Below, piece after piece: positions 29,234 to 59,345 of a stretch of 64,000 nucleotides of DNA; positions within the stretch are counted from its first letter, which is position 1, and each line of letters begins with the position of its first letter. The DNA comes from Plazaster borealis (lineage: Eukaryota > Echinodermata > Asteroidea > Forcipulatida > Labidiasteridae): positions 15,024,135-15,088,134 of the forward strand of contig CM037462.1 of assembly GCA_021014325.1 (NCBI GenBank). Reading direction: 5' to 3'. The position numbers and the translations under genes were made by a program. The notes beneath the pieces were generated by a model. That model saw only the letters and a program-made list of their open reading frames with translations, did no database searches and had not been told where the DNA came from.

Positions 29234-29852
29234 ACACATTATCATACTAACTTATGATAGCAGAACAGAACTCAGTCGTAATCATATGTTGGGGCGATGT
29301 GCATGTGATGTCAAACTTCAGGGATTTTGTGTGCATACTATTAAACTGTCTAGATAAGATAGAGTAAACAGTATTTTTGTAGTATTTTATTGTACGTCTG
29401 TTTACAAATTACATGTACAGCATCAGTTACGATCAAATTCCAAGTAACAAACAAAAACAAAATCATCGACATCACAAATTTGCTCGAAATTCATATTTTG
29501 TATTGGTATTTATTTTATAAAAAAATAAAACGCTACTCCCTAGTGAGTGTGGTACTACAGAAATGTAACCCAAGTCTGAACTGAATGGTTGCAATAATCG
29601 CAACTAACTACCCCTAAAACTTGGTAGGCCTAATGTACGCTGTTAGTGTTACCCTCTACCAAACTCTGTGAATTAATCACCAATGATCAAGAGGTTAATG
29701 GAAACTTAACCAGTTTCAGTTTACACTTACAGGGATGTGTGCTTGCCTTTTGTAATATTCTAAACAATATCATGTTTATATACTTCCAGTGATTATTATA
29801 TTATTTTCAATTTTCAGGCCTGCTAGAGTACTAGGTATCATCATTTTTCACT

Positions 29853-30704
29853 ATGACGTCAGTACTTCTAAAAACTCTCCAATGTGCGAGAAGAGCAAAG
29901 CCTCTCACACAGTCCAAACTTTATCAAAGTGATGCGTTGAGATCAAGATCCGGGAGTTACTTAGCCTCAATGGTCTTATCTAAACATGATTTAGAATCAA
30001 CAGGTTTTTCGACAGGCTCTGAGAGGATGAGAAAGCACATCAAAAGTTTGTCATGTTTGTCAAGACGAACTGGACAAATAAACTGTGTTCCTGGACTCGT
30101 ACCGTGTACTTCTGCCCTCTTGCAAACTGTAAACGCTTCAAGTTTCCATACTTCTTCAAGTAGTCTAAATGGCTTCTTTAGCAGATACAGGCAAGGGTTC
30201 CAGGAGGTGCCACGGCCAGCCTTAGTGCTGGGCATCTGTGGGTTGGTCCCGTTTGTTGTTCCAGCCGTGTACACTGCTGCTACTTCCACAATTGGGCTCG
30301 GCATTCTGTGGGCTCAGGTGGCTTACGGCGCTTCAATCTTATCTTTTCTCGGCGGTGTAAGGTGGGGGTTTGCTTTGACCGAGGGGCAAGGGGGCGGGCC
30401 TACGTGGTCTACGCTAGGCTACAGTGTTGTACCCTCGCTTATTGCCTGGTTGGGACTGCTAATGCCCTTGCAGTCCAGTCAGTTGTGTGTTATGACTGGT
30501 CTGCTCATGGCTTGGGCAGTAGATGCAAACACAAAGGTATATCCAGCATGGTATAAGTCACTTCGACTTCTTTTATCACTTGGTGCATTGACTTCCCTCG
30601 GGGTTGCCTTTGGGTATTCTCTTGTATTTGAGCCCATCACCGAGGAGCATGGATCTAATTTCGTAAAACTTGTCAAAATTGTCAAAATTATCTTAGAGGA
30701 GTGA
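29853..30704 (+). CDS. TMEM69: TMEM69 (DUF3429) multi-pass membrane protein
   Basis: 283 residues in one coding exon. The N-terminal ~115 residues are Ser/Arg/Lys-rich with few acids, compatible with a mitochondrial presequence. From about residue 121 the DUF3429 region runs: RPALVLGICGLVPFVVPAVY (span ~123-143), ILWAQVAYGASILSFLGGVRWGFA (~151-174, with the hallmark F-LGG-RWG), SVVPSLIAWLGLLMPL (~190-206), LCVMTGLLMAW (~211-222) and YPAWYKSLRLLLSLGALTSL (~230-256). The spacing and GGxRWG and P-WY-LR motifs match TMEM69. Function is poorly known. The acceptor ttttcag at 29817 precedes the ATG by 35 bases, so the start is on the second exon. A short Lys/Ile-rich tail ends at LEE. Confidence 0.88.
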   Translation: MTSVLLKTLQCARRAKPLTQSKLYQSDALRSRSGSYLASMVLSKHDLESTGFSTGSERMRKHIKSLSCLSRRTGQINCVPGLVPCTSALLQTVNASSFHTSSSSLNGFFSRYRQGFQEVPRPALVLGICGLVPFVVPAVYTAATSTIGLGILWAQVAYGASILSFLGGVRWGFALTEGQGGGPTWSTLGYSVVPSLIAWLGLLMPLQSSQLCVMTGLLMAWAVDANTKVYPAWYKSLRLLLSLGALTSLGVAFGYSLVFEPITEEHGSNFVKLVKIVKIILEE

Positions 30705-33396: not shown

Positions 33397-34719
33397 TTAC
33401 ATTATTGCACTAAAATCATCCATCATTGTCACAACTTCCACCTCACTGACGAGTAGTGTTAAATTTTCAGTATATGTGATTTCATCTCCCATGGTAACTG
33501 GCTCATTCCCCATGGTAACCACCTCATCTCTCATGACAACAGCTCCGTCCCCCATCCCCATTGTTTGTACTCCATCAATATCCATGGTAACTCCGTCCCC
33601 AAGAGCAACAGCCCCATCTGCCAAAGACATGGCTTCACCCCCCAAGACGTGGTTGTTATGACCAATAGCGACAACCTCATCCCCCATGACAACACAATCT
33701 GCCATTGTTACTGTCAGTAATTGGCTACTTTTACTAATCCCAGCTCCGTCACTCTCCGAAATATCGTCATCATTTTCAGTTCTGCTGAAATCCTTATTAT
33801 CAGTTTCCTCGTGCCTGGCTGCTGTTCTTGCGCCAGTGCTTGTTTTTTTATGAACTTTCATATGCTTCATGTACCCACTACGTCTTGGGAACCCTTTTCC
33901 ACAATACTGGCACGAGAAGACCTTGTCATCCATGCTTGCCACGTGTCGATCTTCGTGTTCGTTAAGATATCTCAGTTGTTTGAATCCTTTCCCGCAGATT
34001 CTACAAATAAATTCATCCTCCATGGCGTGAATTCTCTTGTGCCTGTTGTAGCTACTCCGCTGTGAAAACGTCCGACCACAAATGTCACACTCCACTCTGT
34101 CTGCTCCTTGATGAATCTTCTCGTGTCGGACGAGAATTCTCCTTTGCGAGAAGCATTTCCCACAGACGGAACACGTGAATATTTTTTCATCGGAGTGTAT
34201 CTTTTGATGCATTGATTTGTTACTGCTGTGTGTAAAACCCTTCCCACAGACCTGACACTTGAAACGTTTTTCATCAGAGTTGGCATCGGAGTCGATTTTA
34301 GAACCCTTTCGCTGTCTCTTTTGTGAAGTGTTTCTCGAAACGCCCTCAACTTTGTCCTGCATGAATCCGCTGGCGGTTTTGTTTGCATGAGTTACATGTT
34401 TTTGTACAACGCTGTTCCCTTCCTCTGCGGCCGTATCACAATCCAAGTTATTTTTCTCTAAAATGTGCTTTCTTTCATGACGATCAAACACAAATTTCTT
34501 GTAAAACATTCGACCACAAATTGGACACAAGAACGTTGACTGAAATCTCTTCTTACTCTCCTTAAGTGCCTTTGAACATGACAGAGTTTCACCGCTGGAT
34601 ATTCCTGTACACGTTCCGAGCAAGAAACTCTCATCTTCTGCTCGAGCAGAAAGATCGAGTCTTGGACATCTGTCAGTAGTATCGCCAGTTAATACTTCCC
34701 TAGGTCCATCACTCAACAT
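33397..34719 (-). CDS. C2H2 zinc-finger protein, six fingers, acidic repetitive C-tail
   Basis: 440 residues, single coding exon. Six C2H2 fingers: residues 65-85 (FLCPICGRMF...HERKH), then after a 69-residue linker 155-175, 183-203, 211-231, 239-259 and 270-290. Fingers 2-6 are spaced like a tandem array, but linkers are not the TGEKP type (HSDEKIF, HQGADRVE, HAMEDEF), so DNA affinity may be modest. The linker between fingers 1 and 2 has a basic stretch (SQKRQRKGSKID), a possible nuclear signal. Residues ~345-415 are a degenerate repeat of MGDE/VTMG units, ending in a hydrophobic-acidic tail. No KRAB, BTB or ZAD domain. The start is the first Met of the frame; a spliced upstream exon is possible. 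The two other long ORFs here on the plus strand are shadows. I cannot name an orthologue. Confidence 0.88.
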   Translation of the reverse strand: MLSDGPREVLTGDTTDRCPRLDLSARAEDESFLLGTCTGISSGETLSCSKALKESKKRFQSTFLCPICGRMFYKKFVFDRHERKHILEKNNLDCDTAAEEGNSVVQKHVTHANKTASGFMQDKVEGVSRNTSQKRQRKGSKIDSDANSDEKRFKCQVCGKGFTHSSNKSMHQKIHSDEKIFTCSVCGKCFSQRRILVRHEKIHQGADRVECDICGRTFSQRSSYNRHKRIHAMEDEFICRICGKGFKQLRYLNEHEDRHVASMDDKVFSCQYCGKGFPRRSGYMKHMKVHKKTSTGARTAARHEETDNKDFSRTENDDDISESDGAGISKSSQLLTVTMADCVVMGDEVVAIGHNNHVLGGEAMSLADGAVALGDGVTMDIDGVQTMGMGDGAVVMRDEVVTMGNEPVTMGDEITYTENLTLLVSEVEVVTMMDDFSAIM

Positions 34720-35834
34720 AGTGTCATAACAAGGGATGATCGAGATCAGTGACGAATGTGGTCATTCCTGAAAAATGGCTTGCAGGCCCAAGTTCTCTTT
34801 TACTCTAGACCCAGAACCTCCCAGATTCAGGAGGTTTACAGACTCATGTGCTTCACAGAAATACAAAACTACAGGTTTGGACACAATGTGGACTATTTCT
34901 TTCTCCCTTTGGTGATTGCTTTACTTCTTTTCAAAAATAATTTAAAGGCTCAAGGAGATTTTGAAAAATGCTGAAATCAGGAAAAATCCTTAGAAATCAC
35001 CTTTCTGCATACTGTTTTTTCCCTTTATAATCTGATGATACTTGAAAGTTTGCTGATCCACATCAAAGTTCACTGGTAAATAATGCTGACTGTGCATTCA
35101 ATTTATTCACACATGAATCTTTCCAGAGTTTAGTAGAGTCAATAGGGCCTACTATCTATTCCGCACTGGTGCGATGGTAGGCCCTCCTGCCTGGCTGAAA
35201 TATAGCCCTCTGTAACTTAAGTGTAAGGCCTAAAAGGTAAGGGGATAAATAAGAGAGTGGATTGGCATCAAGCTGAAATCCGATCATCAGTAAGTCGCAG
35301 AGCATTCATCATCATAGATCTAGATTATCATTATCATCTCAGATGATGTTGATGATCTCATCCCCAATCCTGTGTACCCGCTGACGCTGTCTTGGCTAGC
35401 TAGCTACGGAGGAAGTCCAGTGCACTAGCATTAGGGCCTAGCAAGCATTCACGTGTCGTTCTGTCGTCTGCTAAAATAAACCAAACAACTTTATTAACTA
35501 ACTTATCGATTGACTTTTGACACAAATGTTGCCCCAATAATGAATACGTCGAAAACAAGATTGGTTTAATGGAACAATAAATCAATTAATATAAACAGTG
35601 TATCCATAAACTTACATAAAAGCCGGCGCTTATTCACTGCCACATGATGTGATAAAACGTTCTTTGCAGTTTTTGGGACGACTAGCTATATGTTCTCCGC
35701 CGTATACCCGCCGCATGATATTCGGTCACTTCGGCACCTATATCAAACTCGGCATCTGCTGCGATCATTGCAAACTCAGCACTCACAAACTCGACACCCA
35801 CAAACTCGGCACCTGGCAAACTCGACATTAAACA
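34720..35834. other. Upstream of zinc-finger gene
   Basis: No exon recognised. Should contain the 5' UTR and promoter of the minus-strand zinc-finger gene. At 35740-35830 a plus-strand run of caaactcg / actcggcacct units repeats about every 15 bases. Confidence 0.4.
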
Positions 35835-37728: not shown

Positions 37729-37795
37729 ATGGGCGTTCTAATTCTATGTCCTCTCCTGGCCATTGTATTCACAGGTTGGATTGACCCAAGCTCAG
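37729..37795 (+). CDS. Receptor exon 1, signal peptide
   Basis: MGVLILCPLLAIVFTGWIDP then SS plus one base, donor TCAG/gtgag (phase 1). A hydrophobic core of about 14 residues makes a standard secretory signal. A TAG lies just before the ATG, so no longer start is open. It joins the next exon, 3 kb away, in phase. Confidence 0.75.
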
Positions 37796-40700
37796 GTGAG
37801 ATCTCGTTATATATATAAGGAACAGACATTTTGCCTGTTGCACGGACGGAACTAAAGGATAGACAATCATGATTAATCGCACACAGGCATTTCGAGCAGC
37901 TGGATGCCCCATACTAAACGACTCTCTAAAAGTATAGTTCTTACAAGTTAAGCAATGTTTCCCCTTAAAGGCATCGCACACGTTTGGTAATTATCAAAGA
38001 CCAGTGTTCTCATTTGGTGTATCCCAACATATGCATAAAACAACAAGCCTGTGAAAATTTGGGCTCATTGGTCATCGGAGTTGCAAGAAAATGATGAAAG
38101 AAAAAACACACTTGTTGTACAAATTTGTGTGCTTTCAGATAGGAATAAAAGGCTTCTTGCAAGAAGTCTTTTATTATTTTAGTGAGAAATTACCTCTTTC
38201 TCAAAAACTACGTTACTTCAGAGGGAGTCGTTTCTCACAATATTTTATACTATCAACAGATCTCTGTTGCTCGTTACCAAGTCAGTTTTTATGCTAATAT
38301 ATATTTTGAGTAAATACCAAACGTGTACGATACCTTTAAGTTAACAGAACACTTCAAGGCGATGCTCTCATGTATACTTTAGTACAGTTAAATTTAAGTG
38401 CACGAAGATCTAAAGACCATACCCTATAGTCTTAATCAACTGTTTTGTGTTCCTTGCATTTTAACGCTCGTCGTTTTATAATATATTATGGAGATTATGA
38501 GGAAAAGTGTTCAAGTTGGGAGGTTTTTAATGAGGGATTTTTATTATAAAATTTACAAACTCAACGGCTTTTCACAGCAATCAAGCACATTTTGTAGATA
38601 GAGATCTTAGTTTCCTGATGGGGGAAAATGAGCTGGAAATAAACGACAATGCTCTTCGATCATCGTTTGCTTTTATGCACATCAGGTAAAGGAATACACA
38701 AAACAACACTGTAAACATAAATTTGAACATTACAGGCATATTACAGGCCTATTAATGTTTTAATAAGTGACTAGTTTTGATTATCCTTTATCGAATGACT
38801 GATAAAGACATTTGTTACGACAATTCTAAATGAACGTCCCCCCCCCCCCCAACCATTTGGTTTTAGTTTGTTAGGCAATTTGGTAAAGGTCTTTGCATGG
38901 TTACAACTGTGATGTTCCGACTATTATGTTGCGTTGACGGTTGCAAATGGACTTATTATACGGCCCATGTTATCGAACAGATAGTTTTGAACTTTGTCTC
39001 GTGTGTTTGAAGATAAATTCAATAGACGATAAGTCAAATGTCGGCATTCAAGTGCAAATGTCATCTATGGTGGCCCTGAAGGGACATCGAACATTAATAT
39101 TAACGTCAATAATCATGACAAAATCCACGACTTTTGCCCGAAGTCATGAATATTGAGGACAATAATATTCATGACAAAATGTGATGTTTTTTTCAGCAAC
39201 TTAGGTCTATACGTGGTCGTTGCCAAATATGAAGATTAGCATTATGCGTGTAGCGGGAAGTATATACGTGCATTTTTATAATAATAATTATAGGCAGCAC
39301 CTATATAGGTTGCTGAAAAACATCACACTCACGCCTCGTTTAGTTTTAAGTCTTTGGCCCAAGTGGTCATGAATATTGGTGTCAATGTGTACGACTTGCG
39401 CCCAAGTCGTCAAATTTGTCATTAATTAATTTGGGCCACCATATAGTGTTAAATCGCCATGTTTTGTTTCCATTTGTAATCATTGGCAGATGAAAAACAA
39501 ACAAACAAACAAACAAACAAAGGTAGCATTTTATGATAAACAAATAAACAAACAAACAACAAAAAGTGATTAAATCCCAGTAAAGGTTTCCAAGATTTGC
39601 TTTTGTGGTATTAGCCTATTGTTAACAACATACCACAATTACAATAAAACTAATTGTTCGAAATGTCATGAGTTTAATAGATTTTTGTTTAGGGGATCCT
39701 TTGTTTTCAAGGTCAAAATGTAATTTCTCTTGTATAGAAACATTATTATTTTGTTCAGAAAAGGTGATTGTATGAACTAACGGCTCAACTGGTGTTGTGC
39801 AGAGGGGCCGATTTTACAAAGAGTTAAGATAGATATTAACTGTGGATCAATCTTAATTGCTAAGCAAAGTGTGATGTCACAATGAAAGTTACTTCAGCAA
39901 TACTGACAGCACATCTGACAAAAATATAAAAATGGGGGGGGGGGTGGGAAATAAGTCTAACACCCATTAAGCCCCACTTGGACATCCATGTAACATAAAT
40001 AGCGCACTCTGTCATCATACATTTTCACTTTTGCAGCATTAGCCTTAAAGGGACACGTTGCCTTGGATCTGACGAGTTGGTCTAAAAAAGCGTTTGTAAC
40101 CGTTTGTTATAAAATGCATATTGGCTAGAAAGACGTTATAAAAGTAGAATGCAATGATCCACACAAATTGCCTCGAAATTGCGTGGTTTTCCTTTTACTT
40201 TGCGAAATAACACGGTCGGCCATTTTGTGGCCGAGTCAAAAAGTTGACTCCACAAAATGGCCGACCGTGTTTGTTCACGATGTAAAAGGAAAACCACGCA
40301 ATTTCGAGACATTTTTGTGTGGATCATTGTATTCTACTTTTAAAACATCTTTCTATTATAACAAACGGTTACAAATGCGTTTTATAGACCAACTCGCCCG
40401 ATCCAAGGCAACGTGTCCCTTTAACCCTTTGCTTAATCTCCTCTATTTTACAACACTCACCCCCTTATTATTATTTTTAAAAAGCCTTGGGCTTCCCAGG
40501 GATTCTTGGTGAAATTGAGCCTCCAGATCACTACACGAGGCAATTTTGACGGATAAATTGGATGTAACCAACTAGACTGCATACAAAAATAATAAGTACT
40601 TCGGTAACACAAGCAGAAAGTATGAAGAAAATTACAAGAAATCTGATATCTGAATGGGTTTTTCTTCCTGGATATTTCCCGGAACTGGTTGCCTATAGAT

Positions 40701-43700
40701 TATTGCCTAGTAAGTGTGACGTGGCCCTTCATTTACAAATTCTAATTGTTGGTATACCTTGAACCTTTATACCCTGATGTTATGGTTTTTTAATCAGCAC
40801 GGGTTTGAATGTTTCGCAAAAACTATTTACCGGAATTGGATTATACTTTGTTCCATGTAGCCCTCAAGCCTCCACAAAATGTGATCAAAGACTTGCTCAA
40901 TCTGGATTTGTCTTTGTATTGGGAACCACCGGATGATGCATCCAATATAACTACATATACAGTGGCGTTCCGCGAGAAGAAAACGTAAGTTTGGTTGTTT
41001 TGTATACACTACTTTGTTGTACGTATATCAAATGCTAAATCAACTGACAGAGGAATTTTTTCACAGAGTAGAGTGGCTGTATTTTGTATTATTTTGTGTT
41101 TACCTCCATAGGGTTTTTTATTTTGAGAAGAAGTCTAATCTTCTTAATTGTTTTGCGTTGTGCATGTTTAAATGACTCGATACAAATTTAGACGCAATTC
41201 AATCTGCTGATTGTGATGTGTTTTAATATTTAATATAAATAAACCATTTACCATCATTTATCATTATCATTTAGGCTAACCATTTTTACCGACAAGTTCG
41301 TATTAAGGGCATCGTGCACGTTTGGTAATTGTCAAAGACCAGTGTTCTCATTCGGTGTATCCCAACATAATTTATGCATAAAATAACAAGGGTGAACATT
41401 TGGGCTCAATTGGTCATCGAAGTTGCAAGAAAATGATGAAAGAAAAAACACCCTTGTTGTACAAATTTGTGTGCTTTCAGATGTAGGAATAAAAACTTCT
41501 TGCAAGACGTTTTTATTATTTTAGCAAGAAATTACCTCTTCCTCAAAAACTACGTTACTTCAGAGGGAGTCGTTTCTTACAATGTTTTATACTATCAACA
41601 GCTCTCTGTTGCTCGTTACCAAGTCAGTTTTTATGCTAATATATATTTTGAGTAATTACCAAACATGTACGATACCTTTAAGGCGTACCGGTACATTTTG
41701 TAGCAATCCACTCTGATTTGATCAACCCCTCCCAAAACCACCACCAACACTGGCATCTTTTCACCTGTCACGAAAAGGCAAAAACTTCCTTAAAACCCTT
41801 AAAGGCATCGTACACATTTGGTAATAGGAGCCTATTTTTTGTTTCAAACCTATGTAGCTGTAGATTTATACCGTAAAACTAGCCTAAATTTCATTTCAAA
41901 GGTGGTAGCGTTATTGAGATATTGCCGAAAAACTGGAGCGGTTATGTCCACGCAGGAAGAATAACCTGCATTGGAATACACACTCTAAGAAGCGTACACG
42001 TTACCCACAGTACTTCGAAGTGAAAATATTCTTAAAATGCATTACGGTATACTATCCAAAGCTGCTGTACTTCTTACCGATTGCCATTAATTATCAGAGT
42101 CAATACCAAACGTGTACGATGACTTTAAGTGCGGCAAACCCCAGGAATTACGCAAATGCAGGAAGGTTCTACTAGTTACTGGCTCCTCGTAAGCAAAACA
42201 GTTTGATTGGCAGGGGCGGGGGTGTTGGAAACCTCAGAAGAGATGTCTCTATACTTTATCAGAGGTAGAGATATAGGTAGATCTGTATGTCTGTACAATG
42301 GTATGCACGAAGTGTATGGGTGAAAATATTGTTCAGCCCCTCAGAACTAAAACCAACAACACAACTCTGGGACCTGCCCCCCTCTATAGATATGTGGAAT
42401 GGTCCGGTCTGGGAAATCAATGACTTTGACTCCCCCAGGATATTGCACTTTGGAGAAAATGTGCCATGACCAAGTGTTTTTAAAATTATAAGAAGGCCAA
42501 CTAATACATGTTCACAAAATGTCGTGTTGATCCTGTTTATTTTGTTCTCTCTTCTAAGTTGGCGGTCCATTCCGCACTGTACTAACATCACCAAGACTAA
42601 GTGCACGAGTATCACCGGCTTCCTCATCACAGAGTACGGAAAAAGTGACGTCAGGATGTTGTTAACGAAATATTATTATCTCATTACGAGACTGGAACAG
42701 CCGCCATTGATTGAAAATTCATCGTCAGCATCCGTCACTGTTGAAGTGTTTGCATTTAATGACGGTAAATATTAGATTTAAGCTCATAGGTTTTAGTCTT
42801 TTCAGCTATTTTTTTAGTTTGCTTATTTATTGTAATTCTTTTATACACGTGTCCTTTAGGTGGTAAATGTATGAAATTGCATGGATATTCACAAATAACC
42901 TCCTTCCCCACCCTCCCATGGTGAAATGGAAACAAAATAAAGCTAGAAAAAATATAGCCCGAACATCTGACGTCACACTTCGAGGCTCGTGAATAACGCC
43001 AGATAGCGGCCTTGAGCAACTGGCAGGATCCTGGTAGTTGCTGCCATATACATTGTGTATAAACTAAATTACATGCAAACCTGCGCACCTTGTCCAATGA
43101 AATCATTGGACATGTAAAACCAGTCCCTGTGTTATCCTTGCGGATAAAGACAGGGGACCAGTCTAGAAAAAATACACCTATCATATAAATTATTATAATG
43201 AACTAGAGGATATTTTTTGTTACACCCTTCTTTTTCAAATAAATAATTACATTTTTAGGCAAATCGAGGCTGAGAGTAGTAGAGGGTGCGTTCGATTAGC
43301 TTACACGTGTAAGTAAAACTTACACGAGAGCGTTCGATTAGCCATCACATGATACTCGTGTCTGCCCCCGGTGTCAGCCACCACAGCCCCAGCTCGCGAG
43401 CGGGTCTCTGGTGGATGCCCGGTGTAATGACGTAGTTTCCGGCTGCAGGCGTATCATACCAAGATGGCGGGGACAAGTTGAATTCGACCCAAGTACAAAA
43501 ACTACAAATTAATACACAGATTTATCGTCCATGAAACAATAATGCAAATGGAAAGGAAATGTATTTCCTGAAAAACAAACAGTTGGTGAGTGTGTACAAA
43601 TTATGATGTTGTCGTCACGGACATCGACATTTTCCAATTTGAGCAGACGACGGAAATGACGGAGCTGTCTGTTCACACTTTTTTAAGTCGCGCTGCTAGG

Positions 43701-46700
43701 CAACAACCTTTGACCTTAATTTTCCCAGAGTGCCAAGTGAAAACACCGCAGTGTTCGATTAGCCTCGTTTCGTGGCTACCACGAGTGTAAGTCCCCGGTA
43801 CACACAGGGAAGCTAATCGAACGCACACAGTCTGCTCTCTTTTTTAAAGAACATTGGTTGGTACTCAATGTTGTTTCCCCTCGGATAGCAATTTGAAGAT
43901 GGCAGTGTCGTATCAACCTCGTTCCCATGTCTATGTCGCGTCATTTTTCCCTGTGCACCTTCATTTGCTCAATCATTAAAAATGGTCGCGAAACGGGCTG
44001 CCCAATGGCAACGAGCTTGAGATCAAACGAACAGAAACACATCAATAGTAGAGTGTTTTGTATACAAACTTAAATCTTTCTGAAATCATTTATCTTTGTT
44101 TATAAACCTCAATCCTGTACATATCCAGCAACAATTAGCGCACCTGATATCGAAATTCTGGAGCTAACATCCGACTCCATCAAAGTGGCACTACTGGCCC
44201 CGGAGACCCTGTTTTATGACAGCGAGACGCATCAGTTTTTTAGGATGGACGATAACAGAGTCGGTGGTTTCTCTCGGGTGTACTTTAACTACACACTGTG
44301 GAACATATCTGGAGACGGTCAAGATGCGAACAAGGTTAAGAAATGAAGATATAACTTGTTGATCTGTTTATTTTCAAATATAGCGGTGTATTAAAGGCAT
44401 CGTACACGTTTGGAAATTGTCAAAGACCAGTGTTCTCACTTGGTGTATCCCAACATATGCATAAAATAACAAGCCTGTGAAAATTTGGGCTCAATTGGTC
44501 ATCGAAGTTGCAAGAAAATGATGAAAGAAAAAGACACCCTTGTTGTACAAAATTTGTGTGCTTTCAGATAGAATAATAAAAACTTCTTGCAAGACGTTTT
44601 TATTATTTTAGTGAGAAATTACCTCTTTCTCAAAAACTACGTTACTTCAGAGGGAGTCGTTTCTCACAACGTTTTATACTATCAACAGCTCTCTGTTGCT
44701 CGTTACCAAGTCAGTTTTTATGCTAATATATATTTTGAGTAATTACCAAACGTGTACAGTGCCTTTAAGCGTAACACATTGTGCACAAGTACTTTGGTAG
44801 TTTGTAGGCCGGTCACACATTATACTTGTGCACTTTATGGCAGGTTTATCAGGTATCACAGGACGCTTTATCCAAGATAGTGTCGTTCTCCGAACTTACA
44901 CCTTACGCTCTTTACACGTTGGCCGTATCGGCAAGAATAGCCCCGAAGAGATACAGCAAAGATAACTCGACTTTGATCTTCCGGACCAAAGAAGCAGGTA
45001 GGCCTACATGATCAAGAATACGGGTAATTAACAATACTATACGATGGCTAATATTACTCGCCAATTCCTAGAGAACTCATGTTTTAACGGCGTTATATCA
45101 CCGTACTATTGCGATATCGCCTATATTGCGTTTTATCGCCGTACTATTGAATTATGTCGCTGTAATTTATTGCGTTAGGCTACATCGCCTAATTTTATAG
45201 TAATTTATATAGCCGTATTTTTGTTTTGCGTTTGCCGCACGGGGATATAACGCAATAGTACAGCCATCGCCGTTAAAAAAACATATGAGCCACCGTTATA
45301 CACCATGAATTTGTATCTGCAACGTCTGTTTCGTAGTCTTTCGAATCGTCGTTGGCAACTACCGGTGGTTCATACAATCATGGACATACAAATGTCGCGT
45401 TCTTCAAACTAGATACAGGTTGCTTTATTTACAAAATGATATTTGCTTAAAATTATAGTTCACTGTGATGGGTATGCGGGTTCCCGACAGCATTTTTATG
45501 CTAGATTCATGTTTTTTTTCCACTGCATGTGTGCTTTGGCTTGTTACTGCATGTCAACCGCCTACTTTGAAATTGGCTACGGATCTCACTTGAGCAAACG
45601 CTTGGTGGCGCGCTATATCACGAATCCCCCAAATTAATTAACTTTCATCTTTAGAAAATCTTTGTCTGCTGATGCATTAGTGGAAAAAGCAGTTTCCTAT
45701 ATAGCCATGTAATGACCTTGTGATGTTTTCTTTCGAAAAACTCTCGAACAAACATAATTGAAACATTCGGTTGTTTTTGAAGCACATTCGTATATAAATA
45801 AACTATTCTTCTTCCAAGATTTTTAATGTTTTTTTTTCCTTCTTGATTTATGCGACACGATTTCCCCCTGTGGTAGCCCCATCAAGAAGTCCGACACTGC
45901 TGGGTTCCTTTGATGAAGAACTCGACTGTAAAAATCTCAATAGCAGAGATGTTCAGATCAAATGGAAGGTTGGTAAAATCATCACGAGTGTGGTAGATTA
46001 ATAGATTATACTCTTCCAAACAACAATCAAGGTTCTATAACTATTATACGGGCTGATGCACCCTAAAATAAAGCACCATTTGGTGATTAAACAGACAATA
46101 GGGAAGTACGTTCCGTTTATTGCACCACCACTCCGTACAATCAGATCAAATTTAAAAGGATGTCACAGGGATGTCCTTCTTGTTTCTTATAATTATCATT
46201 TGTGTGTCGTTGTTTTTAACACACGGGATATGGAATTTCATGTTTTTATATCATGTATTTCTGGTTATGAAACCAAGGATGCCTCATAAGTGAACTTAAT
46301 CACTGTAGCTAACAAGCCTGAGGAAACCTGTAAACCTGTGATTTCTATAATGTGAACCAGAAACACCGGGGTTAACCCCTACTCTTCCACACTAAGTGTT
46401 CTGGTTTCTTTTACGTACGGTACACTACCAATCCTAGTTCACCTACGGCTTAATGTCCCATCCGAAGGACAAAGCAATTATGGTGAAGCATCTTGCTCAA
46501 GGATACAAGTGTCATGACCGGGACTTGAACCCACACTCTGCTGATCAAAAACACCAGAGTCTGGTGCTCTTAACCGCTCGGCCACGCCAAAGAATGATGA
46601 AGAATAAACAAAAATGAATGAATGATTGAATGAATTTTGTCACGACTAGCTTCTAAAAACCTAAAAACTATACCCTTTTCTCATCAGGCTCCGGCAAAAG

Positions 46701-49700
46701 AATACTGGAACGGCCGAAGCATTCACTATGAAGTTAGACTCGGTGACGGTGACGGAAACGTGACATCAATCGCCGTAATGAATGCGTCGTCGACGTCAAC
46801 GACTGTTCATGATCTCAGCCGATTAGCCGATTACGACATCGTCGTGTATGCGAATACTTCGGGTGGTGGGATACCCAGCTCACACGGTTTTTTACCGGGC
46901 GCAGGCCGTGGTAAGTACACGAGCCAATTGCCCATAAACAAGCTTCCTAAATACGGATGAAGGGGAAAACAATTTTGAATCAAAATCTCTTCCTTAATTC
47001 ACAAAGTACAAATTTCACAAATCTAATTTCATAAACGCACTGTGTGTTTAAACTGGGGTTTTTTGCGAATTTCAAAATGGCCATCGACGCTTGTGTATGA
47101 CCATGGTATGACGACTTCACGGGCTTGTGAACAACAATAGGCCCGCGCGACCAGCTACCCGGTCAATATAAAAAGAGATCAGTGCAATACGTGTGTAAGT
47201 TTTATGTAAAGCATAGAAAAGCATAGACCTCATTACTTGCCTCTGTACCTTCTTACAGACTGACCTATGACAACACACCATTAATTATAGTTCTATTTTC
47301 CCGAGGCGCAGCCGAGGGAAAATGGATTGGTCCGGGGATCTTTCCCGAGGCGCAGCCGAGGGAAAATGGAACGGTCCGGGGATCACCGAGGGAGTCGGAG
47401 TTTTAACCATAGCACGAGTAAAAGCAGTCAGTATTTGTTTTATAACACCCCAACAGACTATTTATCATCCTCGTACACGTAACGTTCGTACGCGCATTTC
47501 AGATACACAGATGCACAACTGATGATTGGGTTCGAGGTGGGTAAAAAAGACGTCTGGGTACCGCGCGCGCCATGTAATAGTCTTTTGACTATTGCATGGC
47601 AAACGACTATCACACGGCCACCGGGTTTCTAGTAAAACTAAGACATATCATGTGACGCGCTCTAAACCAATGAAAAGGCAGAATTTTTGTAAGGGGTGTT
47701 ATAATAATTTATTCGAGGCATTCATTTTGCGCCATCTATCTAGATGCTCTATTCCGAGGCGCATAAGAAAAGAAGAGTTGAAGCACAATACTGCAATACG
47801 AAGCAATACAGTTAACACAGAACTACTGTCGTATATCCCATAGAGAACTTTCTATACGGTGGCCCTGAAGGGAAATCACACGTTATAAATATCTTTCGAA
47901 AACCTTTCTTGCAAACTTATTGTTTGTTATGCCTGATACGCTTTTGGAACAGCACATACTGAAATTACATGTAACAATTTTTATCTTCATGTAGAAAAGG
48001 CAGGCCTTAAACCAGAAGACCTCCACCGTAGAAACTCTTCTAAAATCATCGAATGGAAACCACCCTCTGGTTACGAGGAGTGTGTCTTCGAGTACCGTGT
48101 AATCATCGAATCTGACGGTCAAGCAGTAACGAATACAGACGTCAAGAACGTGACTTTCCTCGATATCTCAGATCTCGAACCCGGAACTTACATTGCTAAA
48201 GTATCTGTGATCACCAAGGGGAGGAACTACTTGTCAGACTATTGTTTACCAGCGAGCCTCAACCTGAACGTTGCACAATCGAGTGAGTCTTTTTTTCGTG
48301 ATACTTCTACGTGGAATTATCCACCTTATTATGCCAAAAAATATATAAAAAACACCTATAGACGAGATGTGACCTTAATTGTTTACATTCAAACTGCCCT
48401 TTGTTAAAAACAAACCTGTCCAAGTCATTTTCCGCCGGGCAAGAAGACGCGTACTCATTGTAAGATTGCGTGTACTTTCTAGCTGGCTGTCAAGTACACA
48501 AAGGTTTTGCCCGGCGACATGCGCGCGCATCATGTTATGGTTTTTAAGTGACGTCAGAGGTCACATCGTCTATAACCATTTCAATTAAGCCCCAGCGAGG
48601 GACATGTTTGGTCCCACCCCATGGTACGTTGCCAGCACATGCTTTTATTGGTATTGGTATTATTCGTGGGCCACTGGCCAAATTGCTATAAATTTTACAA
48701 TAATATAAAAACATTAAAATGGTACAAAAGGTACATGCAAAACACTAAAACAATGCAAACAGTTACTAAATAATGAAGGTAAACAAAGTCATGTTTCTGC
48801 CACAACAAATGACTACAACGGTTAAGAGAGTTTATTTTGCATTTTTGTCAACGATTTATTTATCTGAGTGTGTTGTTTACATGTCCAGGTATTGCCCATG
48901 TTAATTTAAGCTTATTTGTTGCTTATTTCATCAAGTTTTATTTGGTTTCATCTATCATTGACAATAATTGACATACCGATTTTATACACAAAAAGGATGC
49001 TGGCAGAGTTTTGTCCTGCCCCTTCTAATCAACTGACCCCTGCTGATTGACACCTCCTCTAGAACGTGTGGCACGGTACAGCTTAGGCATAGCATATATG
49101 AGCTGAACAGTGTGTACAATGTGGTTAAGACAATGAACATATTACAATTATGTCAGCATGTGCTGACAAGATTAAAGAATAAAAGAATATAAAGTATAAA
49201 GGAATATAAAAAAGTTTTCTCGACCATTTACCAATATTGTATCATACCTTTACAACAATGGCCTGCATTATTCATACATCCATCAATTTAGAGTCATCCT
49301 AAAATAGTTCCATAGTTGTTATAACCCCAAGCATAACATTACAAAAGCACAAATTGAAGTCAGTAATAATGTTGGACTTCATACCACAGAACAGTATTTT
49401 AAATTGTTGCGTTATTGCAATTTTTTTTCAGAAATACTTCAAATGATTATACCTGTGACTGTAGGACTCGTTGCTTTCGTGCTCTTGGTTTTGCCGATCT
49501 ATCTCGTGATCATCAAATGTCTGCATAGCAGCATGACGTTCAGCAGTCTCGATCCATTCCTGGTGGGTAATTACAAAAACTCAACTTCCTCGTATAATGT
49601 GTGTATACAAGTATGATTTCGCGCCACTGTTAATTTAGCCTCTAGTCAAGGCGCTAGGTAGGGCTTCCCGGATGGTATATACAACACAAACAGCGCGACA

Positions 49701-51450
49701 ACTGCTAACACGAAAACAAGACTGGTGCTATCGCAGCTCCGCCACTCACTAGTCTTTTTCGTGTTATTAGCAGTGGTGGCGCTGTTCGTATCCTGGAAGC
49801 CGGGAGCGCCTTGACTAAAGGCTACTGCTCGTTAGTCCCTATTGTTCCTAGAGGTAACGCTCGTGGAGTCCAGGGCCCATTAAGCAGAAAATATTGCTTA
49901 ACAAATTCGGCTAAGCAGCAATTAGCAGGATACCAGTCACATATGCTATATGGGAAATGGCATTAATTTTTGCTGGTAACCTTTTCTGGTAGCATTATTT
50001 TGTTGTGCTTAGCTAGTTTTTGTGTCTAAGCAGCTCTATGAAATTGGGCCCATCAGGACGATACGTTAACTAACTTTGTTGTACCCCAGCGAGAGCAATA
50101 GCCTTTTGTCAAGGCGAGCTTTGCATATATGATGTACTTCAACAACATTTTATTCTATTAAAACTATTTAAAATTTGACAATTTTTCCGGGTGGGGTGGT
50201 GGTTGGATGTTTCCTGCATATTGGATGTAAGCGAAGGTCCTAAACATTTAATTTCACACAAACAAAACCCAATGTTCTTCTTAGTGACGGTACGGGAAAA
50301 GCTCTGCACCGAGTTGTTTCTCACCGCCTGGGCATTTACTCTTGGCGTTCTAGTTACCACTAACAGATCATGTTTTGAAATAATGACAGGGATAAAGACA
50401 GGGGACCAGTCTAATAAGGACCGGTGACTGGGACGACCGCTATCGTCTCAAAAGTCTCCTCCCCTGTCTTTATCCGCAGACACTGGTCTTACAGGCCCAA
50501 TGATTTCATAGGACACAATGATTTCATTGGATAAACGTGCAGTGACGTAGGCTTTACATATCTTTGTTATGATTGGTCCGAGGTGATGTAGTTTGTCAGC
50601 TTGCACTTTCGGTCGTCTGCATGCAGCGTGTGCATAATGTTTGTACATGCATGTAATGTTGTTTTATTCACAATATGTACATGTCGTTTGAATTGACTGC
50701 GAATCTCCATGTGAAATGGATGTGAGATCAACTGGCATGATCCTGCCATGCCAGCCGCTCAAGGCCGGTATCTGGCGTTGTTCAAGAGCCTCGAAGTGTG
50801 ACGTCAGATGTTCAGGCTATCCCATTATAACCGTCTTGGTGTTTTCTTTTTTTGTTTGGATTCAACAGCGTAAAGCATTTTCTCAGACATATAGTTCAAC
50901 GAGGCACCGTGATGTGGAGAAAGAAACGTTTGACACTCTGAGAATCCACCTCAAATTCCAAAACCAAGAAGCAGTGGCTTGTGAAGAGGCAAGTCTCTCA
51001 ACCGACGAGGTGTCCACAGAATCCATCGTTAGCATGCAATACGGCACTGCTGAGTCGCGTGTGCCACACGACGACGACCTGACTGTAGGCTCCAATCAGC
51101 CGCTAAAACAACCACTCCACACCCCGTCAGACGCAGATGACGACACAGATGATGACCAAGACGCGGAACACGATGCATTGATTCAGCAACACATAGAATC
51201 AATCAGATCGGCTAGTGTAGAGACTAAACCCAAATCCACTAGCAGCCGATCACCTGACATAGTCCCGCCCTCAGGCGATGACAATAAACCTCCAAAGCCC
51301 TCATATATCAAACAGTCACAACATGAGTCATTTGAGAAAAGCTTACCTCTCATAAAATTCTCCAAGACGTCATCTGATTCTACTCCTAGCTCCCCCAATG
51401 GTATAGGTCTAGGCTACACCGTCTTAGCCAACTTTTTCCCTCAGAAATAA
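37729..51450 (+). CDS. Class II cytokine receptor-like protein, 10 coding exons, 690 residues
   Basis: A complete single-pass receptor. Exons: 37729-37795, 40861-40984, 42559-42764, 44129-44334, 44844-44997, 45877-45968, 46688-46910, 47995-48282, 49432-49562, 50869-51450; every junction is gt/ag and in phase. Layout: signal peptide 1-~17; fibronectin-III-type D1 24-132 with YWEPP and TTYTVAFRE, then WRSIPHCTNITKTKC (Cys71/Cys79, the 8-residue spacing seen in tissue factor D1); D2 133-252 with ISAPDIEI, VALLAP and a PYALYTLAV motif; third and fourth FN3-like domains 253-357 and 358-453; membrane span ~458-482; tail 498-690. Intron phases 1-2-1-0-1 for signal, D1a, D1b, D2a, D2b, and phase 0 after the membrane exon, are the scheme known for class II cytokine receptors. 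The tail has a YIKQ (YxxQ, STAT3-type) at 643 but no clear JAK Box1. D2 lacks its usual disulfide cysteines. Ligand unknown. The alternative is a generic FN3 receptor. Confidence 0.85.
37965..38339 (+). mobile_element. MITE family A, copy 6
   Basis: TTAA-bordered, just downstream of receptor exon 1. Confidence 0.85.
39060..39445. mobile_element. gtggccctgaaggg-ended element
   Basis: Left arm tatggtggccctga, with gtcatgaatattgag, and right arm gtcatgaatattggtg ... gggccaccata; internal attcatgacaaaatgtgatg / gaaaaacatcaca motifs add symmetry. A (caaa)n run follows at 39495-39565. Confidence 0.6.
40045..40424. mobile_element. TTAA-flanked 380-bp full palindrome
   Basis: TTAA, then aagggacacgttgccttgga ... 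ggtcggccattttgtggc, a tight turn, and the complement back to TTAA. Nearly the whole element is stem. It occupies the receptor intron between exons 1 and 2, about 440 bp before exon 2. Confidence 0.9.
40861..40984 (+). CDS. Receptor exon 2, first half of D1
   Basis: LKPPQNVIKDLLNLDLSLYW then EPPDDASNITTYTVAFREKK. The PQN-V, L-L-W-EPP and TTYTV-F/YRE pattern is typical of the N-terminal domain of class II cytokine receptors and tissue factor. N-glycosylation site NIT at 51. Acceptor catgtag, donor AAAC/gtaag, phase 2. Confidence 0.85.
41303..41681 (+). mobile_element. MITE family A, copy 7
   Basis: In the receptor intron between exons 2 and 3; followed at 41805-42128 by a shorter element with like ends and the ggtggtagcg interior. 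Confidence 0.85.
42559..42764 (+). CDS. Receptor exon 3, second half of D1
   Basis: WRSIPHCTNITKTKCTSITG, then YYYLITRLEQPP and VTVEVFAFND. W-I-C-NIT-T-C is the most family-specific stretch; the usual CDLT that follows the second Cys is CTSI here. Acceptor cttctaag, donor GACG/gtaaa, phase 1. Confidence 0.87.
42955..43165 (-). repeat. Inverted copy of the repeat at 50395-50825
   Basis: In complement it shares ctgtctttatccgc, ccaatgatttcattgga, gctcaaggccg and gcctcgaagtgtgacgtcag, in order, with the copy that abuts receptor exon 10. Internal sequence is about half as long here. Confidence 0.8.
43286..43825. mobile_element. gtgcgttcgattagc-ended element, ~540 bp
   Basis: Inverted ends gtgcgttcgattagctt and aagctaatcgaacgcac, plus inner cgttcgattagcc / gttcgattagcctcg echoes. 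No coding capacity; in the receptor intron between exons 3 and 4. Confidence 0.85.
44129..44334 (+). CDS. Receptor exon 4, first half of D2
   Basis: Starts ATISAPDIEILELTSDSIKV, parallel to the IGPP-I-I / S-I-V opening of class II receptor D2, with a longer than usual loop before YFNYTLWNIS. No cysteine. Acceptor atccag, donor AACAAG/gttaag, phase 0. Confidence 0.85.
44391..44768 (+). mobile_element. MITE family A, copy 8
   Basis: Full length, 57 bp after receptor exon 4 and 75 bp before exon 5, filling most of a 509-bp intron. Confidence 0.88.
44844..44997 (+). CDS. Receptor exon 5, second half of D2
   Basis: VYQVSQDALSKIVSFSELTP then YALYTLAVSARI and FRTKEA. L-PY--YTLAV-A and the closing F-TKEA are FN3 strands F and G. 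Acceptor atggcag, donor GCAG/gtagg, phase 1. Confidence 0.87.
45076..45290. mobile_element. ttttaacggcgtt-ended MITE
   Basis: Ends ctcatgttttaacggcg and cgccgttaaaaaaacatatgag with repeated gtactattgcg / cgcaatagtac motifs; in the receptor intron after exon 5. Confidence 0.75.
45877..45968 (+). CDS. Receptor exon 6, first third of domain 3
   Basis: 30 codons: APSRSPTLLGSFDEELDCKN and then SRDVQIKWK. PS-SP at the start and a DVQIKWK strand are FN3 hallmarks. Acceptor gtggtag, donor AAG/gttgg, phase 0. Confidence 0.8.
46688..46910 (+). CDS. Receptor exon 7, rest of domain 3
   Basis: EYWNGRSIHYEVRLGDGDGN, a loop, then HDLSRLADYDIVVYANTSGG and GIPSS. NG-I-YEV-L, L--YDI-V-A-T-GG-P-S is a textbook FN3 C-terminal half. 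Acceptor tcatcag, donor CGTG/gtaag, phase 1. Confidence 0.88.
47300..47390 (+). repeat. Two direct copies of a ~46-bp GC-rich palindromic unit
   Basis: Each unit has ttcccgaggcgcagccgagg, itself a near palindrome, then gaaaatgga and ggtccggggatc. In the receptor intron between exons 7 and 8. Confidence 0.85.
47995..48282 (+). CDS. Receptor exon 8, domain 4
   Basis: A whole FN3-like domain in one exon: SSKIIEWKPPSGYEECVFEY, VTFLDISDLEPGTYIAKVSV and a closing SLNLNVAQS. Cys387 and Cys441 could pair. Acceptor catgtag, donor CGA/gtgag, phase 1. Confidence 0.87.
49432..49562 (+). CDS. Receptor exon 9, membrane span
   Basis: MIIPVTVGLVAFVLLVLPIY and LVIIK form one strongly hydrophobic helix followed by a Lys stop-transfer, then CLHSSMTFSSLDPFL. 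The SSLDPFL stretch is where JAK Box1 would lie but is not a convincing match. Acceptor tttttcag, donor CTG/gtggg, phase 0. Confidence 0.88.
49636..49824. mobile_element. tagtcaaggcgct-ended MITE
   Basis: Ends tctagtcaaggcgc and gcgccttgacta, inner cgaaaacaagactgg / agtctttttcg arms; about 190 bp, in the intron before the last receptor exon. Confidence 0.8.
49872..50052. repeat. Foldback element, ggcccaatttcata family
   Basis: Starts ggcccattaagcagaaa (an internal loss of the usual end) and finishes cagctctatgaaattgggcc; in the last receptor intron. Confidence 0.8.
50395..50825 (+). repeat. Repeat abutting receptor exon 10
   Basis: Contains an inner inverted pair (gataaagacaggggaccagt / cccctgtctttatccgc) and ends in the gtgacgtcagatgttc block about 45 bp before the exon 10 acceptor. 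Paired with 42955-43165. Confidence 0.8.
50869..51450 (+). CDS. Receptor exon 10, cytoplasmic tail and stop
   Basis: 193 residues, hydrophilic with acidic runs (DADDDTDDDQDAEHD) and Ser/Pro stretches. Tyrosines at 505, 555, 643 (YIKQ) and 680 (YTVL). The open frame extends 51 codons upstream of the acceptor ttcaacag, but that part (through CDVRCSGY) is a repeat also found inverted at 42955-43165, so it is intron. Confidence 0.88.
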   Translation, partial: RKAFSQTYSSTRHRDVEKETFDTLRIHLKFQNQEAVACEEASLSTDEVSTESIVSMQYGTAESRVPHDDDLTVGSNQPLKQPLHTPSDADDDTDDDQDAEHDALIQQHIESIRSASVETKPKSTSSRSPDIVPPSGDDNKPPKPSYIKQSQHESFEKSLPLIKFSKTSSDSTPSSPNGIGLGYTVLANFFPQK

Positions 51451-51514: not shown

Positions 51515-51520
51515 AATAAA
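51515..51520 (+). terminator. Poly(A) signal of the receptor gene
   Basis: AATAAA 65 bases after the TAA stop of the receptor, giving a short 3' UTR. Confidence 0.6.
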
Positions 51521-55189: not shown

Positions 55190-56055
55190 TCCAGTATTCT
55201 CACTTGGTGTATCCCAACACATGCATACAATAACAAGCCTGTGAAAATTTGGGCTCAATTGGTCATCGAAGTTGCAAGAAAATGATGGAAAAAACACCCT
55301 TGTTGTACAAATTTGTGTGCTTTCAGATAGGAATTAAAGGCTTCAGGCCTGAAGTCTTTTATTATTTTAGTGAGAAATTACCTCTTTCTCAAAAAACTAC
55401 GTTACTTCAGAGGGAGTCTTTTCCTACAATGTTTTATACTATCAACAGCTCTCTGTTGCTTGTTACCAAGTAAGTTTTTATGCTAATATATATTTTGAGT
55501 AATTACCAAACGTGTACAGTGCCTTTAATTATAGACTGATTGCAATACCAGGGGCGGATCCAGGATTTTCCAAACGGGGGGGCGTGATTTTTTTTCAGAA
55601 TGAAAGACCGCGCCATCCCCAGACAGCATTTTATTTTTCTGCACTGCGAAATTGCCAATGCACTAATGAGTATGACTTCTGAAAAAATTTTTTCTCCTTT
55701 TTTTTTTTTTTCCTGGCAAAAGGGGCGTGCGCCCCACGCCCCCTGGATCCGCGCCTGAATACCACGGTCTATACTTTAAGCCAGTCTTAAATCTTAAGCC
55801 TGTGCTGAGCTGGCTATGATCGATCTTTGTTTTGTTTTTAAACATGGGCAATCTGTTAGTTGTTGATGATTTCATGCAAAGAGCCCTATGATGAGACCGT
55901 TTATTGATAGCGTTTACTCGGTCTGTAATTTTGTCCTAGGCTTTTTGTTTCCCCTCCATTGTCGCCTAATGTTTGATCTTTGTTTACCTTCCAAAGCCAT
56001 TGTCACTGTCTGAGTGTGCTATGGATAATGGCGGCCAACGTAGCTAACCAAGCTT
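55190..56055 (+). repeat. Second copy of the 23.2-23.8 kb segment, with nested insertion
   Basis: Begins with a left-truncated MITE A (to TTAA at 55528) and continues ttatagactgattgcaatac ... atggataatggcggcca ... ccaagctta exactly in the order of 23519-23840. A foreign 209-bp element interrupts it at 55549-55757. Confidence 0.85.
55549..55757. mobile_element. ggggcggatcc-ended insertion with 5-bp target duplication
   Basis: Ends caggggcggatccagga and its imperfect complement cctggatccgcgcctg, flanked by AATAC on both sides. The unfilled relative at 23 kb reads gcaatactacgg across the same point, so both borders are fixed by comparison. Confidence 0.88.
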
Positions 56056-59099: not shown

Positions 59100-59345
59100 A
59101 AAGAAAATTTGACTATAGAGCAGGACTTGAACCTGCGACCTCAGGATTAATATGCCAGCGCTCTACCAACTGAGATATACGGCAGTTACAGGTTGAATGG
59201 CCTCTGACGGCCACCCCCGAACAAAAATATTGACAAAACAGGGAGACCGCCAACATTGGGGCTAGTTACCTCAGTTGGTAGAGCGCCGGACCGTTAATCC
59301 GGAGGTCGCAGGTTCAAGTCCCGCTCTGATCAATTTCTCTTCGTT
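59100..59345. repeat. Two tRNA-like sequences in inverted arrangement
   Basis: 59122-59189 on the minus strand and 59270-59333 on the plus strand are both tRNA-Asn-like (GTT in the plus copy) and face away from a shared centre with gggagaccgcca. The 4605-4672 region plus 4957-5030 shows the same parts. Anticodon loop and acceptor stem do not meet tRNA rules well, so I call a tRNA-derived repeat. Confidence 0.6.

Follow-up and report, generated by a model that had tools for sequence, protein, structure and literature searches.

A predicted receptor gene in two starfish

We analyzed a 64,000-nucleotide stretch of the genome of the starfish Plazaster borealis (the window; contig CM037462.1 of assembly GCA_021014325.1, positions 15,024,135 to 15,088,134). 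On its forward strand, between window positions 37729 and 51450, lies a predicted gene for a membrane receptor whose outermost domain resembles that of the class II cytokine receptors, to which the interferon (IFN) and interleukin-10 (IL-10) type receptors belong. Splicing of ten predicted exons gives 690 codons and a stop codon with no internal stops. All nine introns have GT-AG borders, and the intron phases are 1-2-1-0-1-0-1-1-0.

Exon 1 (37729..37795, ending in phase 1) carries the start codon and a signal-peptide-like segment, MGVLILCPLLAIVFTGWIDPSS, in which the 19-residue hydropathy windows from residues 1-3 exceed 1.6. We refer to the four extracellular domains that follow as D1 to D4. 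The first half of D1 (LKPPQNV...WEPP...TYTVAFREKK), which matches the Pfam family Tissue_fac, is encoded by exon 2 (40861..40984, phase 2), and the second half (WRSIPHCTNITKTKC...), with Cys71 and Cys79, by exon 3 (42559..42764, phase 1). D2 is likewise split between exon 4 (44129..44334, phase 0; TISAPDIEI...YFNYTLWN) and exon 5 (44844..44997, phase 1; ELTPYALYTLAVSARI...), the latter having no cysteine codon. The two parts of D3 come from exon 6 (45877..45968, phase 0) and exon 7 (46688..46910, phase 1), and D4 comes from exon 8 (47995..48282, phase 1). Exon 9 (49432..49562, phase 0) encodes the membrane helix (residues ~455-482) and the juxtamembrane segment SSMTFSSLDPFL. Exon 10 (50869..51450) encodes the cytoplasmic tail, including a conserved RKAFSQTYS, and ends with the stop codon. 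A candidate polyadenylation signal, AATAAA, is found 65 bases past the stop on the same strand (51515..51520). Apart from the N terminus, the membrane helix is the only long hydrophobic segment of the protein, and each of the eleven N-glycosylation sequons lies N-terminal of it; we predict that the gene product is a type I membrane protein. Cysteines are located at residues 7, 71, 79, 270, 387, 441, 483 and 535.

The introns of this gene also contain repeats. An interspersed repeat of ~380 bases, which is composed of three adjoining repeat families that we joined, is present in introns 1, 2 and 4 (37965-38340, 41303-41682 and 44391-44769), and by eye a further copy is seen near 55200-55520. 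What appears by eye to be one short sequence, in inverted orientation, occurs at 42900-43045 in intron 3 and at 50700-50820 just before exon 10.

Three protein searches were made, in which at least 8000 (E ≤ 0.001), 3403 (E ≤ 10) and 86 (E ≤ 10) candidates sharing 5-residue words with the query were scored. The only relative recovered was an uncharacterized protein of Asterias rubens, also a forcipulatid asteroid, which is an NCBI predicted model (LOC117297722; P0001, 648 amino acids). No other homologue was found among the scored candidates, which, given the 5-residue-word requirement, does not imply absence elsewhere. The A. rubens protein is 75% identical to the window protein in an alignment of exons 2-10, and BLASTP gives 72% identity across 96% of the query. 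Its exons follow the same order starting with exon 2, and it likewise has Tissue_fac and fibronectin type III (FN3; Pfam fn3) domains. The alignment indicates conservation far beyond chance. Of the eight exon junctions that could be tested against this protein, seven are free of gaps. The gap at the eighth closes if an AG 9 bases downstream is used as the acceptor of exon 8, so that the exon starts at 48004 and the protein has 687 amino acids; because this choice removes the gap, the 687-residue form may be the main one. In the NCBI A. rubens model the signal-peptide exon is missing, as is the very start of D1, and exon 1 is therefore drawn from the window only.

A preliminary description, made from the window before any database search, had proposed an uninterrupted ten-exon, 690-residue receptor with a single membrane helix, in an apparent invertebrate. 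The splice, the hydropathy profile and the A. rubens exon chain from exon 2 onward bear out the gene and its helix, and the nearest relative recovered is indeed from an echinoderm. The A. rubens protein is already present in NCBI with precomputed Pfam domains and no functional name. What is new here is the recognition of what the protein is, its intact gene plan, and the architecture in which FN3 modules form a stalk.

The extracellular domains and the intron plan

The whole protein matches Pfam Tissue_fac with 47.5 bits (cut-off 27), and the A. rubens protein does so with 34.5 bits despite its truncated D1. D1 alone scores 42.0 bits against Tissue_fac and 19.8 bits against fn3. As a control, we scored fragments of D1, IFNAR1, titin and Dscam against Pfam. 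The D1 core fragment again preferred Tissue_fac (43.3 bits, versus 21.3 for fn3), and the two IFNAR1 fragments matched Tissue_fac with 36.9 and 44.3 bits with no fn3 match listed. The two titin fragments and the Dscam fragment behaved in the opposite manner, with 40.7, 39.9 and 51.0 bits for fn3 and no Tissue_fac match listed at E ≤ 10. The preliminary description had named profile scores closer to ordinary FN3 than to class II receptors as grounds for rejecting it; for D1 the profile scores go the other way.

Comparison of D1 with the sequences of the PDB gave 27 matches at E ≤ 1, 13 of which are class II receptors (four IFNAR1, one IL20RA, three IFNLR1 and five IL10RB chains). The four IFNAR1 chains are the top matches, with E values down to 4.3e-6 (whole chain) and 0.0014 (single stretch), and the aligned region includes the W..i..C.nit.tkC stretch. 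The other, two-domain class II receptors such as IL20RA, IFNLR1 and IL10RB match D1 at E 0.0072-0.21. The IFNAR1 matches span only residue 24 to residue ~80-87, and their pairwise scores are modest. A D1-D2 profile built from the two starfish proteins had 12 PDB matches at E ≤ 10, five of them class II (IFNAR1 four times, best E 6.4e-4, and IL20RA once).

The motifs noticed in the preliminary description (WEPP, TTYTV-FRE, W-I-HC-NIT-T-KC and an 8-residue cysteine spacing) are all located at residues 43-79, as W43-E-P-P, Y55-T-V-A-F-R-E and W65-R-S-I-P-H-C71-T-N-I-T-K-T-K-C79. C71 and C79 are the sole cysteines of D1 and would form a putative disulfide. The D1 disulfide of IFNGR2 is given as Cys86-Cys94 by mass spectrometry, and elsewhere printed as Cys86/Cys96 (PMC5013595); the spacing of the former pair is that of starfish Cys71-Cys79. 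The same source names two conserved class II D1 tryptophans, Trp49 and, in the stacked motif, Trp74, which we assigned to IFNGR2 by eye. Starfish W43 and W65 line up with IFNAR1 tryptophans in the PDB alignment. Because D1 prefers Tissue_fac over fn3, the generic FN3 controls do the opposite, and the PDB matches are led by IFNAR1, we prefer a class II assignment, and D1 is very likely homologous to class II D1. Structure prediction did not add to this, as the mean predicted local distance difference test score (pLDDT) was too low to read a fold both for LOC117297722 alone (31.9) and for residues 1-222 of that protein together with exons 2-5 of the window (32.8).

D3 and D4 are of a different kind. 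D3 alone matches fn3 with 39.4 bits; D4 alone reaches 20.2 bits, below the cut-off of 25, and neither domain has a Tissue_fac match at E ≤ 10. At E ≤ 1, D3-D4 gave 53 PDB matches, which are headed by RPTP-delta, Dscam and fibronectin and include no class II receptor; the D3 segment of exon 7 also matches contactin. By these comparisons D3-D4 are ordinary FN3 modules, with D3 belonging among those of Dscam, RPTP-delta/LAR, contactin and fibronectin, a class to which the D1 scores speak against assigning D1.

The intron phases set D3-D4 apart as well. Exons 6-8, which encode them, amount to 603 nt, keep the reading frame, and form a phase 1-1 cassette placed before the membrane exon. Without this cassette the phases read exactly 1-2-1-0-1-0, which is the plan given for IFN/class II receptor genes in PMC8863823; the same source describes class II cytokine genes as having five exons and phase-0 introns. 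The full set of phases, 1-2-1-0-1-[0-1-1]-0, thus equals the class II receptor plan plus a phase 1-1 insertion, a comparison of phases only. The starfish gene therefore shares its phases with the two-domain class II receptors apart from the insertion, and differs from them by the added D3-D4 cassette and by a D2 lacking the disulfide. It had been proposed that the phases run 1-2-1-0-1 and then 0, which is what we see, with 0-1-1 inserted in between.

IFNAR1 has four extracellular FN3-fold domains, and the preliminary description had likened the starfish layout, with an FN3 pair inserted before the membrane exon, to it. The insertion itself is borne out by the phase 1-1 cassette. A second class II pair of the IFNAR1 type is not, by both the PDB matches and the phases: the IFNAR1 chains have a second weak D1-motif match at chain positions ~204-292, whereas starfish D3-D4 match only generic FN3, and the class II plan does not recur in the cassette phases (1-0-1-1). 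As D3-D4 are generic FN3 modules on a phase 1-1 cassette, the four-domain likeness to IFNAR1 is most likely a convergence, while the likeness in D1 appears to be real.

Receptor class and possible signaling

The analysis shows the gene model, assigns D1 to its family and D3 to the generic FN3 modules, and finds a juxtamembrane block and a C-terminal tyrosine block strongly conserved between the two starfish. The protein is probably a cytokine receptor, and we favor, with some confidence, a receptor that derives from the class II family and works as a cytokine receptor. D1 would be the membrane-distal domain, homologous to class II D1, and D2 a fast-diverged partner from the same two-domain unit. 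This D1-D2 unit would sit atop two generic FN3 modules, a stalk inserted as a phase 1-1 cassette, and would bind a ligand that is secreted and probably belongs to the helical cytokines.

When the identical runs shared by the two starfish proteins are ranked by length, the second and the fourth fall in the tail, which is ~200 residues long. The longer one, SSMTFSSLDPFLRKAFSQTYS (residues 486-506; 21 residues), lies directly inside the membrane and spans the exon 9/10 junction, in a region where exon 9 overall is just 59% identical. The other, TPSSPNGIGLGYTVLAN (669-685), is C-terminal, is tied in length with two runs in D1, and contains LGYTVL, which we take to fit both immunoreceptor tyrosine-based inhibitory motif (ITIM)-like and endocytic Y-x-x-hydrophobic patterns. 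We propose that SSMTFSSLDPFLRKAF, in the juxtamembrane block, would be a docking site for a JAK, and that Y680, once phosphorylated, could recruit a STAT encoded in the genome or serve as an endocytosis or SH2 site.

A search of the 560.6-Mb assembly, which was the scope of all our genome searches, found no STAT at E ≤ 0.001. At E ≤ 10 it returned two collinear exons on contig C9, and exon pieces near these match STAT_alpha (64.0 and 32.0 bits) and STAT_bind (20 and 24 bits, below the cut-off of 27). The exons span C9:6977000-6986900 on the reverse strand and by eye are most like STAT5/6. A STAT gene is present in the genome, on a contig other than that of the receptor.

As far as we searched, the receptor appears to be single copy. 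D1-D2 had eight matches in the genome, four being the exons of this gene and the other four having E ≥ 1.13. A Tissue_fac scan of the genome scored seven candidates and gave five exon-level matches, none over the cut-off (control genomes gave 0/14). No convincing second class II gene was found in this way, although split paralogues could have been missed, since exon 2 of the receptor itself scored 20.9 bits, below the cut-off. The other four matches were set aside by eye: the best (24.0 bits) has the look of a titin-type FN3, one appears to be non-coding DNA near TONSL-like exons, and two form a pair of identical repeats. In the window, positions 55277-55470 match D1/D2 weakly; by eye they are part of an interspersed repeat and were not taken as a second copy.

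A protein of the class II structural family need not signal through JAK and STAT. The starfish receptor could instead be tissue factor- or decoy-like, with D1-D2 holding a protease, a lectin or another ligand and the tail serving in trafficking or adhesion. The Pfam family matched by D1 is named for tissue factor, which is described as sharing class II origins and having evolved another function (PMC1963337). The JAK-binding role of the tail is a proposal from sequence, a point that also weakens the reading we favor, and LGYTVL would also suit an endocytic signal. Still, a ~200-residue tail with two conserved blocks suggests intracellular partners, and IFNAR1 tops the PDB matches of D1, which at E ≤ 1 number 27 and include no tissue factor chain. 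We consider this alternative unlikely.

A cytokine receptor derived from the class II family has other evidence weighing against it, most of it in D2. Alone, D2 has no Pfam match at E ≤ 10, an absence that is weak evidence. In the whole-protein scan, residues 198-232 give a sub-threshold match to Dscam-type FN3 (17.0 bits, cut-off 39, E 0.0076). A D2 profile from the two starfish had two PDB matches at E ≤ 10, both unrelated, and none to a class II chain. Interfer-bind, the Pfam model of class II D2, does not match the starfish D2, though it did match the Dscam control weakly (16.0 bits, cut-off 21). The next cysteine after Cys79 is Cys270, so that D2 lacks the class II D2 disulfide, Cys209-Cys234 in IFNGR2 (PMC5013595). 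The same source describes a proline-pair linker and a YNVAXW strand for class II D2. By eye, TISAPDI and YFNYTLW stand at these places and are a lead only: TISAP holds one of the two prolines, and FNYTLW matches YNVAXW at positions 2 and 6 with an aromatic residue at position 1. D2 is therefore the weak point of the class II reading, and the earlier view of it as a class II-type second domain is not supported.

D1 is not free of such evidence. Class II D1 is also described with an R-L/V-R-A strand and a (X)WRWR(X) stack (PMC5013595); the starfish D1 lacks the RLRA motif (by eye, ITRLEQ stands in that place), and with no tryptophan past W65 it lacks the second tryptophan and hence the WRWR stack. 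Twelve of its 27 PDB matches are titin, myosin-binding protein C, RPTP or designed FN3 chains, the best being titin (E 2.3e-4 for the whole chain, 1.4 for a single stretch). A profile of the whole protein is led by Dscam and contactin, via D3, with IFNAR1 coming after them (E 0.0014, via D1). As for the phases, FN3 modules are usually bounded by phase-1 introns, so we count the phase plan as modest evidence; the only informative positions are the phase 2 in D1, the phase 0 in D2 and the phase 0 after the membrane exon. Membership in the class II family, as first proposed, is thus upheld for the D1 profile and the phase plan and not for D2.

The Dscam/RPTP/fibronectin-like D3-D4, a D2 unrecognized apart from its sub-threshold Dscam-type match, and the titin and myosin-binding protein C matches of D1 would speak for an ordinary FN3 receptor of the adhesion or guidance type, with a first FN3 that came to resemble class II D1 convergently. 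The lead of 22 bits that Tissue_fac has over fn3 in D1, its reversal in the titin and Dscam controls, the cysteine pair at class II spacing and the phase plan argue otherwise, and make such a receptor quite improbable. Tall class I receptors are generally built with their cytokine-binding pair carried on an FN3 stalk, and two IL5RA chains match D1 in the PDB (E 0.47 and 0.97). We nevertheless hold a class I (gp130/Domeless-like) receptor with membrane-proximal FN3 modules to be very improbable, because the first-domain motif CX9-10CXW... (PMC1963337) is absent, the only D1 cysteines being 71 and 79, and the sequence has no WSXWS motif.

If the protein is a class II-derived cytokine receptor, its type may be older than the vertebrates. 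The chances seem to us evenly balanced that a true class II receptor was present in the ancestor of echinoderms and chordates and that starfish keep a single copy of it, with D1-D2 carried on the two-FN3 stalk. The literature consulted places the class II system in vertebrates, and dates the first IL20RA to lampreys and further IL-10 receptor chains to ray-finned fish (PMC8226699). An IFN-mediated response is described there as not seen in tunicates or amphioxus (PMC8218723), and the sea urchin as having no apparent cytokine receptor signaling system (PMC3296744). IL6R-like class I receptors are reported from sea urchin and acorn worm, and JAK and STAT are traced back to sponges (PMC13203501). 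An oyster protein, CgIFNR-3, is likewise described as an invertebrate IFN receptor-like protein (PMC8218723), and we liken it to the starfish protein by that description only. Among the matches listed in the open-licence literature, none reported a class II receptor from echinoderms. An IFNAR1-grade D1 in a class II intron plan would, if the assignment is true, move the origin of the family to the early deuterostomes. In that case receptors of the IFN/IL-10 type would also be older than the known vertebrate ligand families, and starfish would have a helical cytokine, yet to be discovered, as the ligand. The gene offers a concrete point, in a STAT-bearing genome, from which to seek the ancestral ligand.

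Other features of the window

Upstream of the receptor gene, a single open frame of 289 codons (29835-30704, forward strand) matches Pfam DUF3429 with 120.7 bits and is presumably a TMEM69-like gene. It is followed by a 454-codon open frame on the reverse strand (33397-34761) with six C2H2 zinc-finger stretches. A 275-codon open frame rich in serine, proline and threonine (8772-9599, reverse strand) had no Pfam match at E ≤ 0.1. ARAGORN predicted three tRNA-Ser(AGA) genes (5281-5354, 5542-5615 and 7179-7248), the first two of them 261 bases apart, and one tRNA-Asn(GTT) gene (59260-59332). Rfam confirms the tRNAs at 5281, 5542 and 59260, and adds a weaker tRNA match on the reverse strand at 59119-59178.

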